From assembly GCF_000799735.1 (NCBI RefSeq), contig NZ_JUHH01000001.1:2108001-2172000 (forward strand): DNA of 64,000 nt, given 5' to 3'. The stretch is from Methylotenera sp. G11 (GTDB lineage: Bacteria > Pseudomonadota > Gammaproteobacteria > Burkholderiales > Methylophilaceae). The notes below the pieces were generated by a model, which did not search any database, was not told the DNA's origin, and saw nothing but the letters and a program-made list of their open reading frames with translations. The translations under genes were made by a program, and so were the position numbers. Shown here piece by piece: positions 3,010 to 44,831 of the stretch. Numbering within the stretch: the first letter of the stretch is position 1; each line of letters starts with the position of its first letter.

Positions 3010-3147
3010 CCTGATATACTTGATGCCTGTAGCTTTTCCGGGCCGTGCAGCCGTTGGCCGGAACAGGTTCTGATTGAACGGAATATGGGTGGCATGCCAT
3101 CACCAATCAGGCGCTAGAATAAACTCAATGTTAATGACACTTTAGAA

Positions 3148-3741
3148 ATGGCAACCCCAAAAGAACTCTCGGATTTTCTTGCAGCAGCTGAGCGCCGTGC
3201 TTTCAAGCAGACGGCTTATGCTGTGCGCGACGATCATGCCGCACTTGATATCGTGCAGGATGCCATGATGAAGTTGGCCGAAAAGTATGGTGAGCGCCCG
3301 GCAACCGAGTTTCCCATGCTGTTTCAGCGCATATTGCAGAATACCATGCGTGATTTCTGGCGCAGGCAGAAAGTCCGCAATTTATGGACGACCTTGCTTT
3401 CCTCATTCGGCAGTAGCGATGCCGATAACGAAGAGCGTGATCCGCTGGAGACGATAGATGTTGGGGATGATGGGGATGAGCCGTCAGCGCAGTTAGCGCG
3501 CAACCAGACGATAAAATTGATCGAGCGTGCCCTGGAAAAGCTGCCTGCGCGTCAACGGCAGGCTTTTGTGTTGCGTTACTGGGAGGAGATGGATGTGGCT
3601 GAAACGGCTGAAATCATGGGCTGCTCTGACGGTAGCGTGAAGACTCACTGCTCACGGGCGGTTCACGCATTGGCGCTGGAATTAAAAAAACAGGGTTTAG
3701 ATAAGCTGGGCTTATCAAATGCCGTATTCAACAAAAAATAG
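3148..3741 (+). CDS. ECF-type RNA polymerase sigma factor
   Basis: A 197-residue sigma-70-family factor with only regions 2 and 4. Region 2 includes DIVQDAMMKLAEKYG and the -10 recognition stretch near residues 45-75; an acidic linker rich in D/E (about 90-115) separates it from region 4, where LPARQRQAFVLRYWEEM and the helix-turn-helix MDVAETAEIMGCSDGSVKTH are typical of ECF sigma factors. It is followed 21 bp later by a single-TM protein with anti-sigma architecture, then a secreted protein and an RDD membrane protein, all co-directional. In betaproteobacteria this four-gene order recurs and is usually left without a function. The start ATG gives the expected N-terminus. Confidence 0.9.
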   Translation: MATPKELSDFLAAAERRAFKQTAYAVRDDHAALDIVQDAMMKLAEKYGERPATEFPMLFQRILQNTMRDFWRRQKVRNLWTTLLSSFGSSDADNEERDPLETIDVGDDGDEPSAQLARNQTIKLIERALEKLPARQRQAFVLRYWEEMDVAETAEIMGCSDGSVKTHCSRAVHALALELKKQGLDKLGLSNAVFNKK

Positions 3742-3762
3742 CTCGGTATCGAGGAGCATGCA

Positions 3763-4233
3763 ATGAATATGCAGAAAAACAATATGTGGAATGGAAAAAA
3801 TATCAATTCGCTAGACGATAGCATGATTTCTGATCCTGCAATGGAAACGCAGATTGCGCGCGGTATTTCCGATTTGCTGAAAGACCATGCGCAATCCCTG
3901 ACTCCAGAACAGGAGCAGCGGTTGTCGGCTGCGCGGAACGCGGCCGTAGATTATCTGGCCAGGCGACAGGCTCAGCATAGTACCGATCACGGCGTGGACG
4001 GGCACGGCCATGTGCTGCGCTGGTTCGGGCAGCATATCGGGCAGAATTTTGAACAGCACCGAGTGGCATCGGCGGTGTTGCTGCTGTCTGTGATGATGCT
4101 GACTTTTTTCGCAGTACAGCACTTTGGATTCAATAATAATTTAGAAAATAGCGATGCGTTTCTGTTGGCGTCTGATTTGCCACCGGAAGCTTATGCGGAT
4201 AAGGGGTTTGATGCATGGATAGAGTCCAATTAA
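3763..4233 (+). CDS. DUF3619 single-TM protein, candidate anti-sigma factor
   Basis: A 156-residue protein: a soluble N-terminal part (about 1-105, with LLKDHAQSLTPEQEQRL), one hydrophobic helix near 106-122 (VASAVLLLSVMMLTFFAV) and a short acidic C-terminal segment of about 30 residues that would face the periplasm. This fits the family called DUF3619. A cytoplasmic head, one membrane helix and a periplasmic tail directly behind an ECF sigma gene is the layout of anti-sigma factors; I see no ZAS zinc motif, so this role is inferred from position and topology only. Its end overlaps the next gene by 19 bp. Confidence 0.8.
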   Translation: MNMQKNNMWNGKNINSLDDSMISDPAMETQIARGISDLLKDHAQSLTPEQEQRLSAARNAAVDYLARRQAQHSTDHGVDGHGHVLRWFGQHIGQNFEQHRVASAVLLLSVMMLTFFAVQHFGFNNNLENSDAFLLASDLPPEAYADKGFDAWIESN

Positions 4234-4658
4234 TCTTTAAATGGATATTGGCTTCATTTTTTTTACTGGCTGCCTGTGCTGCTAACGCTGATGAGGCTAG
4301 CCCGACATGGGGACAGTTGACTGAGGGGCAGCGCCAGGTTTTAAATCCACTTGCTTCAGAGTGGGATACCCTGCGTCCATGGCAGCGTGAAAAAATGCTG
4401 GATATTGCACGTGACTATCCGAAGATGAGTCCGCAAAAACAGGAGCTGGTGAAAAATCGGCTGACGAACTGGAGCCGGATGACCCCTTATGAACGTGAAA
4501 ATGCCAGAAAAGGGCATCAGCAGTTCAAATCCTTGCCTGAAGGTAAAAAACGCGAACTCCGTCAGAAATGGAATGAATACCAGAACCTGCCGGAATCAGA
4601 ACGCGCCAAGCTGCGCTCTGAATCTCCCGAAGCTTATGGCGATCCAAGCCTGGACTGA
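4215..4658 (+). CDS. Secreted DUF3106 protein
   Basis: A 147-residue protein with a signal peptide (hydrophobic stretch about 8-23, then ACAANADEA), followed by a highly charged helical region with repeated short phrases: LTEGQRQVLNPLASEWDTL, MSPQKQELVKNRLTNW, MTPYERENARKGHQQF, LPEGKKRELRQKWNEY and LPESERAKLR. These are approximately 20-residue helical repeats, each opening with a Ser/Thr/Leu-Pro or similar turn, characteristic of DUF3106. It probably acts in the periplasm. The alternative is a lipoprotein, as AACAA sits near the cleavage site, but the lipobox fit is poor. It overlaps the DUF3619 gene and is likely translationally coupled to it. Confidence 0.8.
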   Translation: MDRVQLIFKWILASFFLLAACAANADEASPTWGQLTEGQRQVLNPLASEWDTLRPWQREKMLDIARDYPKMSPQKQELVKNRLTNWSRMTPYERENARKGHQQFKSLPEGKKRELRQKWNEYQNLPESERAKLRSESPEAYGDPSLD

Positions 4659-4708
4659 TCAAGCTTCACAAGTTATGCCCGTGCATCGTTTAAAGTGATG
4701 GATATCCT

Positions 4709-5137
4709 GTGAATAATCTGAAAACGAATATGGTCGCCCCGAGCCTCATCAAGCTTGGGGCTTGTCTTTTATATGAACTGCTGACGGTGATTGCGATTGT
4801 CTTTGTAAGTGCCGGTTTGTTCCTGTGGGTTGCCGGCGATGCTACCCAGGGCGTCAAGCGGCTGCTGTTGCAGATATTTCTGTGGCTGACCATCGGTGCT
4901 TATTTTGTCCGGTGCTGGCTGCAGAGCGGGCAGACGCTGGCAATGCAGGCCTGGAAGCTGAAACTGGTCACTGATGACAATCAATTGCTGAATTTAAAGT
5001 TTGCGCTACTGAGATACCTGCTGGCGACGTTCAGCTTTGCTTTGTGCGGCCTTGGATTTTTGTGGGCTATTGTCGATCGCCAGCACTTGTTTCTGCACGA
5101 CAGGATTCTGAACAGCAGGATTGCAGTACGCGTCTGA
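4709..5137 (+). CDS. RDD family membrane protein
   Basis: A 142-residue inner-membrane protein with about three to four hydrophobic helices (about 12-40, 52-70, 92-120). The paired Arg/Asp pattern of the RDD family appears as GQTLAMQAWKLKLV in the middle and IVDRQHLFLHDRIL near the end. RDD proteins have been linked to transport and stress, but none of that predicts a substrate here. GTG start; the gene closes the sigma/DUF3619/DUF3106 cluster and converges on lptG with 42 bp between them. Confidence 0.82.
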   Translation: MNNLKTNMVAPSLIKLGACLLYELLTVIAIVFVSAGLFLWVAGDATQGVKRLLLQIFLWLTIGAYFVRCWLQSGQTLAMQAWKLKLVTDDNQLLNLKFALLRYLLATFSFALCGLGFLWAIVDRQHLFLHDRILNSRIAVRV

Positions 5138-5179: not shown

Positions 5180-6250
5180 TTATCTGCGGTCTACGTAATA
5201 CAGCATTCCCAGCCCTGCCATCAGGAACAGGATCGTGGGCATCACCGCACTGAATAACGGCGCCCAATCATTCAACACGCCCAGATGGATGAATGTACGG
5301 TTGAGTATCTGGTAAAGTACGCCGAGCATGATGCCGATAAATATCTTGGTGCTGGCACCGCTGGCGCGCTGCTGTATAAAACCAAATGGCAATGCGAGCA
5401 TGATCATGACCATACAGGCCAGCGGATAGATCAGTTTCGACCAGAGCGCCATTTCGTAGCGGGTCGTTTTCTGTTTGTTAATCGATAGGTGCTTGATGTA
5501 CGAATACAGGTTCCAGGCCGACATCTTTTCCGGCAGCACAAGTAATACGTTTAACAGCTCCGGGCGTATCAGCGAACGCCAGGTGGCCCGCTCCAGCTGA
5601 TTGACGCGGTTGCTGTCGTGATCAAAATGGGTTTGCGTGACTTCTTTAAGGTTCCATTGGTCATCTATGAATTGCCCGCTCTTGGCATGGCTGTCTGTTT
5701 TGAGTTTAAAGGTATGGTCAAACTCGTAAATATGCACGTCAAGTAGCGTTGAGTCTGGCAGGATCTGTTCTACGTTTACAAAGCTGTTGCCGTCTTTCAC
5801 CCACAGTCCTGATTTGAAATCCTGGACAATCACCGAGTCTGTCGCCTGAATGCGCATGCGCTGTGCCATTTTTTCACTCAAAGGCGTAATCAGTTCACCT
5901 ACCAGGAATGTGATCAAGGTGAAAATTAAGCCGATCTTTAATAAAGAGAGCGCGATGCCGGTGGATGAGATTCCGCTGACTCTGAGTATGATGAGTTCAG
6001 AGTAGCGCGCAAATTGCCCGATGCTGTACATGCACCCGACAAGCACCGCTACCGGCATGATTTCATATATGTGGCCGGGCGCACTCAAGGCCACGAATAA
6101 TATTACTTTACCCAGGCCGTAATTACCGCGACCCAGGCTTTCCAGTTCCTGGATCAAATCAAAGAATGAGAACATGGCGATCAGCGCCAGCATGACCAGG
6201 GTCACGCTGACTGTGATTTCTTTGAGCAGGTAGCGGGTAAGTATATTCAT
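5180..6250 (-). CDS. lptG: LPS export ABC transporter permease LptG
   Basis: Inner-membrane permease that, with LptF and the LptB ATPase, extracts lipopolysaccharide and pushes it across the Lpt bridge. The 356 residues show the family plan: three N-terminal membrane helices (about 10-115, starting MNILTRYLLKEI), a periplasmic beta-jellyroll domain (about 125-260), and three C-terminal helices. The length matches the family. It sits 21 bp downstream of lptF, the usual pairing. lptB is not in the window. Confidence 0.95.
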   Translation of the reverse strand: MNILTRYLLKEITVSVTLVMLALIAMFSFFDLIQELESLGRGNYGLGKVILFVALSAPGHIYEIMPVAVLVGCMYSIGQFARYSELIILRVSGISSTGIALSLLKIGLIFTLITFLVGELITPLSEKMAQRMRIQATDSVIVQDFKSGLWVKDGNSFVNVEQILPDSTLLDVHIYEFDHTFKLKTDSHAKSGQFIDDQWNLKEVTQTHFDHDSNRVNQLERATWRSLIRPELLNVLLVLPEKMSAWNLYSYIKHLSINKQKTTRYEMALWSKLIYPLACMVMIMLALPFGFIQQRASGASTKIFIGIMLGVLYQILNRTFIHLGVLNDWAPLFSAVMPTILFLMAGLGMLYYVDRR

Positions 6251-43655: not shown

Positions 43656-44831
43656 CTATTCACTCACAATTTCAGATGGCTTCGGGCGTTTGCCGATAAT
43701 AACCGAAATGTTAATGATCGCCTCGGCACGCGCAATCTGGATAGTGGCTTTTTGATTCGGCTTCAGGGCTGCAATCAAGTTCAGCATGGTGCCGCTGTCA
43801 ATGACAGGTTTACCCTCGATCGCCAATAAAATGTCACCGGCGCGCAGGCCAGCCTTGTCGGCGGGGCTGTTGCGCAGAACACCTGCAATCAGTGCGCCTT
43901 GCGGCCGTTTTAAGCGGAATGATTCTGCAAGTTCCGGCGTAATGTCCTGTGCCTCAATGCCTATCCAGCCGCGGGTTACGTTCCCTTGAGCAATGATTTG
44001 TTCAGTCACCTGCTGTGCCAGTGTTGCCGGTATGGCGAAGCCAATGCCCATGGAGCCGCCGCTGCGTGAATAGATTGCACTATTGATGCCGACCAGGCTA
44101 CCTTCGGTATCGATTAATGCACCGCCAGAATTGCCGGGGTTGATCGAGGCGTCTGTCTGGATGAAGTTTTCATAGATGTTAATTCCAAGGTGCGTGCGGC
44201 CAAGAGCGCTGACGATGCCCTGCGTGACAGTCTGGCCGACACCGAAAGGATTGCCGATAGCCAATACTACATCGCCGACACTCAGCTTGTCCGAACTGGC
44301 AAAAGTGATTGCAGGCAGATTATCGGCATCTACTTTAATCAGTGCGAGATCAGTGTCGGGGTCGGTCCCTACCACTTTTGCAGAGAGCTTGCGGCCGTCT
44401 GACAAAGCCACCTCGATTGCATCCGCTGTTGCAATCACATGGTTATTGGTCAGGATCAAACCTTTTTCACTTACGATCACGCCGGAGCCCAGGCTGTTTT
44501 CCGGTTGCGAAGGGGTTTCCATGTCGTCGAACTGGTCGCCAAAGAAATGCCGAAAAACCGGGTCGTCCAGGAATTTCTCATGCGGGTTGGCAGCGGCTGC
44601 CTTGCTGGTGAAAATATTGACCACAGAAGGCATCGCTTTTTTTGCCGCATGACGGTAAGAGCCTGCCGGAGTGGCCTCCTGTAATTGATCATTCGGCTTT
44701 ACTACCAACGCATGTTCTTTCTGATTTAAAAAATCAGGATTGAAAATGCGCAATACAAACAGCAATGCCATGCACACGGTCGCCGTTTGTGCAAAAATGA
44801 GCCATACTTTTTTATGCAGCTGGTTATTCAT
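43656..44831 (-). CDS. Periplasmic serine protease, DegS/HtrA type
   Basis: A 391-residue protease with one N-terminal membrane anchor (about 9-27), a trypsin-like domain with H131, D161 and S235 (GNSGGAL), and one PDZ domain near 290-375. One PDZ plus an uncleaved anchor is the DegS/AlgW layout; DegP/DegQ have two PDZ domains. DegS-type proteases cut RseA-type anti-sigma factors, and an ECF sigma with a putative single-TM partner is encoded at 3148-4233, though no link is shown. Divergent from the Nif3-like gene. Confidence 0.9.
   Translation of the reverse strand: MNNQLHKKVWLIFAQTATVCMALLFVLRIFNPDFLNQKEHALVVKPNDQLQEATPAGSYRHAAKKAMPSVVNIFTSKAAAANPHEKFLDDPVFRHFFGDQFDDMETPSQPENSLGSGVIVSEKGLILTNNHVIATADAIEVALSDGRKLSAKVVGTDPDTDLALIKVDADNLPAITFASSDKLSVGDVVLAIGNPFGVGQTVTQGIVSALGRTHLGINIYENFIQTDASINPGNSGGALIDTEGSLVGINSAIYSRSGGSMGIGFAIPATLAQQVTEQIIAQGNVTRGWIGIEAQDITPELAESFRLKRPQGALIAGVLRNSPADKAGLRAGDILLAIEGKPVIDSGTMLNLIAALKPNQKATIQIARAEAIINISVIIGKRPKPSEIVSE

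Follow-up and report, generated by a model that had tools for sequence, protein, structure and literature searches.

Introduction

Does the four-gene run considered here encode a membrane-anchored switch for transcription, and, if so, is it of a kind already described? The run lies in a 64,000-nucleotide stretch of Methylotenera sp. G11 (contig NZ_JUHH01000001.1, positions 2,108,001 to 2,172,000 of the forward strand; hereafter the window), within a genome of 2.5 Mb, and comprises genes for an extracytoplasmic function (ECF) sigma factor, a DUF3619 protein, a DUF3106 protein and an RDD family membrane protein. An earlier note, made from the sequence alone, had proposed an undescribed envelope-stress regulator in which DUF3619 would be the anti-sigma factor and DUF3106 a periplasmic sensor. 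We consider it quite probable that the operon is a beta-proteobacterial switch of the SigAb-AabA-AabB type known from Acinetobacter baumannii, in which DUF3619 would hold the sigma factor inactive at the inner membrane and DUF3106 would bind its periplasmic tail.

The operon and its relative in Acinetobacter baumannii

Profile matches and coordinates bore out the four co-directional genes, two of them overlapping, that the earlier note had described.

3148..3741, plus strand: ECF sigma factor, 197 amino acids; member of the NF006550/PRK09047 equivalog family, to which SigAb also belongs
3763..4233, plus strand: DUF3619, predicted anti-sigma factor, 156 amino acids; PF12279 at 97 bits (cut-off 22.2); position as AabA
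4215..4658, plus strand: DUF3106, all-helical and probably secreted, predicted to partner the anti-sigma factor in the periplasm, counterpart of AabB, 147 amino acids; PF11304 at 116.7 bits (cut-off 24.3)
4709..5137, plus strand: RDD family membrane protein, fourth gene, GTG start, 142 amino acids; PF06271 at 54.3 bits (cut-off 24.1)

The first gene encodes an ECF sigma factor of the NF006550/PRK09047 (SigAb) type with regions 2 and 4 both present (NF006550, 280.2 bits with a cut-off of 173; Sigma70_r2 PF04542, 26.1 with 24; Sigma70_r4_2 PF08281, 67.6 with 25.7). The sigma and DUF3619 genes are separated by 21 bases and the DUF3619 and DUF3106 genes overlap by 19; the DUF3106 protein had no Pfam match besides PF11304. 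This order, in which a sigma factor, a small membrane protein and a DUF3106 protein are encoded by genes that overlap or nearly do so, is that of the SigAb-AabA-AabB operon. In the DNA-recognition region of the sigma factor, residues 159 and 168 are cysteines that are invariant in 31 aligned beta members, and SigAb retains the first only.

The A. baumannii sigma factor was met by tblastn, with 38.8% identity to residues 32-191 of the window sigma factor (E 4e-24). Its gene overlaps that of a protein of 106 residues, which in turn overlaps the gene of a DUF3106 protein; upstream stand GTCAAC, 17 spacer bases that include four Ts, and CGTT, as mapped in PMC12153292. Because of this gene layout and promoter, we identified the protein as SigAb. 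SigAb matches NF006550 at 236.7 bits (cut-off 173) and AabB matches DUF3106 at 38.1 bits (cut-off 24.3). A tblastn search of plasmids with the window DUF3106 protein gave no match, so AabB was recognised by profile and not by pairwise search. In the plasmid collection, Acinetobacter records 3.7-4.1 Mb long (L223, which is NZ_CP104448.1, and H3 and H4) resemble whole chromosomes labelled as plasmids.

PMC12153292 provides experimental results for this relative. Overexpression of AabA, AabB or both lowers the activity of a SigAb reporter, and in E. coli the cytoplasmic portion of AabA suffices for inhibition. Copper raises SigAb activity, SigAb is needed for copper resistance, and the modelled contact between AabA and SigAb resembles that between CnrY and CnrH.

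Conservation of the module

The module was sought in an order sample of 200 genomes and a class sample of 143 genomes, drawn evenly and with the window's own genome included; we take order and class to be the Burkholderiales and Gammaproteobacteria of GTDB, which include the classical betas. In the order sample, 148 genomes had a sigma factor above the cut-off, 146 had DUF3619 (145 above the cut-off), 147 had DUF3106 and 173 had some RDD protein. The earlier note had looked to co-conservation of the genes, and this was found: directly downstream of the sigma gene and on its strand, DUF3619 was present at 144 of the 148 loci, and DUF3106 was likewise downstream on the same strand at 144. The exceptions are a contig break (G255), one locus with both DUFs missing (G146), two where only DUF3619 went unrecognised (G143, G237) and two where only DUF3106 did (G204, G324). 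Further analyses used 147 of the 148 loci, leaving out G255, and from these 37, 33 and 31 sequences were chosen for three alignments (A1, A2 and A3). The sigma and DUF3619 genes overlap at 123 of the 143 loci with a usable DUF3619 start, and by exactly 4 bases at 111 of them; among alternative starts, preference was given to -4, -8 or -1. The RDD gene is less constant than the DUFs, being downstream at 93 of the 116 loci for which 2000 bases or more were available on that side.

A similar arrangement was found across the class. The Pfam DUF3619 model matched 14 genomes, the window's own included, and all 13 others had a sigma gene upstream and DUF3106 downstream. At E 1e-40, the sigma model found 36 further genomes, 32 of them above its cut-off; DUF3106 lay within 1500 bases downstream of the sigma gene in 31 of the 36 and was missing there in five. 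DUF3106 occurred without such a sigma factor in four genomes. Three genomes of the class carry two copies of the sigma/DUF3106 pair: G009 (contigs C31 and C105), G075 (C85 and C86) and G080 (two places on C1). Viral contigs, scanned once with the sigma alignment, gave no relative.

The DUF3619-like proteins of 13 gamma loci mostly have in common an N-terminal RL..AR..AL stretch and the hydrophobic segment. As read from the sequences, their C-termini are mostly EELEFYxWL or similar, whereas those of the betas follow DLPxxAYxDxxFxxWL. A tree of 40 sigma factors (20 of the 147 betas, 13 gammas, SigAb and six others) paired SigAb with gamma_L009 (95/96), but the backbone was unresolved and bootstrap unsettled, and SigAb and two outgroups sat on long branches, including a Streptomyces outgroup that was not separated. 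From its distribution, the SigAb-type switch seems to occur widely in beta- and gammaproteobacteria.

The predicted anti-sigma factor and its periplasmic partner

The topology that the earlier note had assigned held up. A 17-residue segment above hydropathy 1.6 was found in 132 of 139 DUF3619 relatives, which is in keeping with the strongly hydrophobic segment of the window protein, and the N-terminus of DUF3106 resembles a signal peptide, with hydrophobic columns in the alignment. With the start at 3763, DUF3619 is about 25 residues longer at the N-terminus than most relatives; an ATG at 3841 is a candidate alternative and would give a protein of about 130 amino acids. The C-terminal tail of DUF3619 is conserved as well.

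Codons 4153..4230, plus strand: conserved DUF3619 C-terminal tail, residues 131-156, candidate DUF3106-binding segment, from column conservation in 143 relatives

Its most conserved columns in these relatives are P140 (99%), L135 (97%), D131 (90%), A143 (87%) and D146 (86%), and a strict pattern of the tail motif matched only 68 of 139. Among solved sequences, DUF3619 and DUF3106 had no clear match (best E 0.79 and 0.083).

We infer the mechanism in Methylotenera from gene linkage and from the A. baumannii homologue. DUF3619 would keep the sigma factor inactive at the inner membrane by binding it through helices of its cytoplasmic N-terminus, probably much as the small "class II" anti-sigma factor CnrY does. 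The secreted, helical DUF3106 would bind the periplasmic tail of DUF3619 as a co-inhibitor or stabiliser, and an envelope signal, which in the Acinetobacter relative is copper, might loosen the complex and free the sigma factor. RDD would be a frequent but optional membrane companion. Given the linkage (144 of 148 loci), the overlaps, the topology and the anti-sigma activity shown for the homologous A. baumannii operon, the pairing of sigma and anti-sigma factor that the earlier note had proposed, with DUF3619 predicted to anchor and block the sigma factor, is well supported; the binding of DUF3106 to the tail is moderately supported.

RseB has a beta-rich, LolA-like fold. The structure model of DUF3106 consists of helices only, with a mean predicted local distance difference test score (pLDDT) of 80.9, and had no fold match in the PDB at E 0.001 (best E 1.3). 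The genome's one MucB_RseB match lies away from the operon, in a run at 1103930-1107451 of contig G000:C1 (L224) that reads as rpoE-rseA-rseB-rseC-degP, with RseB assigned by model, the rest by reading open reading frames, and the degP frame cut by the locus end. DUF3106 as an RseB-like sensor, as had been suggested, was therefore not sustained. The earlier note had also pointed to a one-PDZ DegS-type protease in the window that could cut the anti-sigma factor.

43656-44831, minus strand: HtrA-type protease; general Do/HtrA model at 431.4 bits (cut-off 416.2)

PDZ models match this protein at one stretch only, and it falls short of both DegS models (314.8 against a cut-off of 422.95, and 296.4 against 408). 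The separate rpoE-rseA-rseB-like run is its expected client, so it need not serve the sigma/DUF3619 module, and the proposed DegS link found no support. A pathway of the RseA/RseB/DegS type, with a DegS-like protease making the first cut in DUF3619 and DUF3106 shielding it as RseB does, would share the compartment order of cytoplasm, membrane and periplasm with the module and could draw on the one-PDZ protease; the RpoE analogy was also drawn by the SigAb authors (PMC12153292). We nevertheless regard it as unlikely, in view of the separate run, the scores below both DegS cut-offs and the all-alpha model of DUF3106 set against a beta-rich RseB.

The same protein could be imagined as a metal sensor. 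Across 138 DUF3106 sequences, histidine, cysteine and methionine together exceed half in a single column, M71 (56%, otherwise mostly leucine), and no conserved histidine or cysteine column was found; in the DUF3619 alignment no column exceeded 40% histidine or cysteine. Lacking conserved metal ligands, DUF3106 is unlikely to sense metal directly. Consequently, we hold a CnrYXH-type switch, in which DUF3106 would bind copper or another metal and relay this to the anti-sigma factor, to be quite improbable, despite the copper induction of SigAb, its role in copper resistance and the CnrY-CnrH-like model of AabA-SigAb (PMC12153292). Two plasmid ECF sigma factors do adjoin annotated periplasmic heavy-metal sensors and copper genes, but in both of these loci the sigma gene stands last and not first.

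Promoters and candidate targets

For promoters, the SigAb pattern was taken as GTCAAC, 16-18 bases and CGTT, with expected counts from shuffles. Besides A. baumannii, it stands before the sigma gene at 6 of the 13 gamma loci, in six different families (expected 0.0), or at 7 of 14 if A. baumannii is counted as a positive control. All six sites consist of GTCAACC, a 16-base spacer and GCGTT; the other 7 of the 13 loci have none. This is strong sequence evidence that the gamma sigma factors with a site share promoter specificity and self-activation with SigAb, and it argues against an Acinetobacter-specific system.

The picture differs in the betas, where the pattern was found before the sigma gene at 3 of the 147 loci (expected about 0.2) and was absent at 144, the window operon also being without it. 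The earlier note had suggested a promoter in 3010-3147, and the known SigAb motif was not found there. This region holds one candidate of another kind.

3011..3020, plus strand: CTGATATACT, candidate housekeeping (extended -10) element of the operon, sole copy in the window; promoter role predicted

In the form CTGnTATACT, this element occurs in all eight upstream regions examined from the window's family (expected 0.004) and in none of the 142 other loci. Its form suggests a housekeeping-type extended -10, although it was not listed by a consensus promoter scan, its -35 being poor. Since the window has no SigAb-type site and its family conserves CTGnTATACT, we infer that this copy of the operon is not self-activated via the known SigAb motif.

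No promoter of the sigma factor itself was found at the other beta loci. A block centred on GGTCAAG, present in about half of the beta upstream regions, was considered for this part and rejected because its occurrence tracks the divergent ilvB/ilvI genes (found at 69 of the 84 loci that have ilvB and at 23 of the 63 that lack it) and because on the minus strand it has the form of a promoter, TTGACC-N16-18-TAnnnT (64 of 84 with ilvB against 13 of 63 without); no aligned -10 for the sigma gene was seen downstream of it in 98 sites. The block is a conserved, divergent promoter-like feature between ilvB/ilvI and the sigma gene in its own right (upstream regions L018-L194).

As to targets, the SigAb motif is not in excess in the window's own genome (21 sites, where the reversed pattern gives 33), nor was it enriched across nine genomes selected because a site precedes their sigma gene (46 against 63 in total). 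Some individual sites can be mentioned. In two of the nine, a second SigAb-type site less than 3 kb from the sigma promoter is placed to drive a candidate target: a probably secreted EF-hand protein in G060 (L239, 1593-2216) and a DUF4382 protein with a lipoprotein-like start in G052 (L232, 3-1421). In the window's own genome, a site with GTCAACC, a 16-base spacer and CGTT (L208, 1501-1526; G000:C1:1472971-1472996) is located 70 bases upstream of a gene for cytochrome c in a methanol-dehydrogenase-like cluster, with about one such site expected by chance from base counts. Another of the 21 matches falls within the sigma gene (window 3551-3577; L212, G000:C1:2111551-2111577) and is probably a chance occurrence.

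The neighbours of the operon are all on the strand opposite to it.

1055-2701, opposite strand: histidine kinase with a PilS-like membrane domain, upstream
2698-2931, opposite strand: PP0621-family protein, upstream
5180-6250, opposite strand: lptG, downstream

Discussion

Several results weigh against reading the operon as a SigAb-AabA-AabB-type switch and need to be set beside the evidence above. AabA resembles DUF3619 only marginally: it was the best open reading frame of its locus (L196) with all three profiles, at E 0.003-0.012 with Z=100, and had no Pfam DUF3619 match. In the source itself (PMC12153292), how SigAb, AabA and AabB touch one another is predicted, and inhibition was also seen with AabB by itself, so that the mechanism is not settled there either. 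The missing SigAb-type site before the operon and at nearly all beta loci, and the lack of a motif excess in the genome, point the same way. Finally, the sigma-DUF3619 read-through folded at a pLDDT of 32.8, which is unusable and came from an alignment of five rows only, and residue coupling across 134 pairs was uninformative, with 35 of the top 100 couplings, and 3 of the top 10, in the N-terminal domain that makes up 43 of the 124 columns. These uninformative tests are what one might cite for downstream genes that are simply co-transcribed envelope proteins under control of the sigma factor and not its regulators. That explanation seems very improbable to us, as it sits poorly with the near-constant gene order and 4-base overlap and with the inhibition of SigAb by the A. 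baumannii counterparts (PMC12153292).

The SigAb-type switch would account for the operon; its wider history is a separate matter. We lean towards the view that SigAb did not originate in Acinetobacter and is a single branch of an ancient second pathway of ECF envelope signalling, seen in 148 of the 200 genomes sampled from the order and in 37 of the 143 sampled from the class (the window's own included), with a minimal anti-sigma factor of the DUF3619 type and a helical co-inhibitor, DUF3106. Its self-activating GTCAAC/CGTT promoter would have been kept in about half of the gamma members examined and is lacking in nearly all betas examined, and the window's family seems to be under a constant housekeeping promoter.

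The term "undescribed" in the earlier note was only partly right. The kind of switch was described in Acinetobacter in 2025, where SigAb is said to appear "unique to Acinetobacter species" (PMC12153292), and the breadth reported here argues against that statement. This breadth seems to be unreported in the open-access literature searched, in which no mention of DUF3106, DUF3619 or PRK09047 was found, though an ECF classification may list the group. Envelope stress is at most a putative signal; the sole studied relative responds to copper (PMC12153292). Two widespread families of unknown function, DUF3619 and DUF3106, gain a testable role, and a promoter motif, together with harmless model hosts, is at hand for finding what the pathway senses. 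The distribution suggests that an envelope-linked ECF switch separate from RpoE is common in the order.

Comparison with known systems

The RpoE-RseA-RseB(-RseC) system is like the module in having an ECF sigma factor, a single-pass inner-membrane anti-sigma factor and a secreted third protein, but its sigma factor is of another family and DUF3106 is modelled as all-alpha. In CnrH-CnrY-CnrX, the third protein is periplasmic. The module differs in that DUF3106 has no conserved metal ligands, and in the two plasmid loci with a sensor it is the final gene that encodes the sigma factor. CnrY of Cupriavidus metallidurans is a small anti-sigma factor with a short, two-helix cytoplasmic part, according to PMC7406223 and PMC12153292.

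An AlgF search for a Pseudomonas genome in which to find SbrI and SbrR returned none among 274 genomes. SbrI-SbrR may be a further relative of the module, and we offer it as a lead only. In PMC10418997, this pair of Pseudomonas aeruginosa is an ECF sigma factor with its cognate anti-sigma factor, linked to envelope stress.

Closest to the window operon is SigAb-AabA-AabB. The two differ in the length of the middle protein (106 amino acids in AabA, 156 or about 130 in DUF3619), in the RDD gene, which follows in the window only, and in the SigAb-type promoter, which precedes SigAb and not the window operon. They are alike in their NF006550 sigma family, gene order and overlapping genes, with a small protein with one membrane helix in the middle and DUF3106 third.

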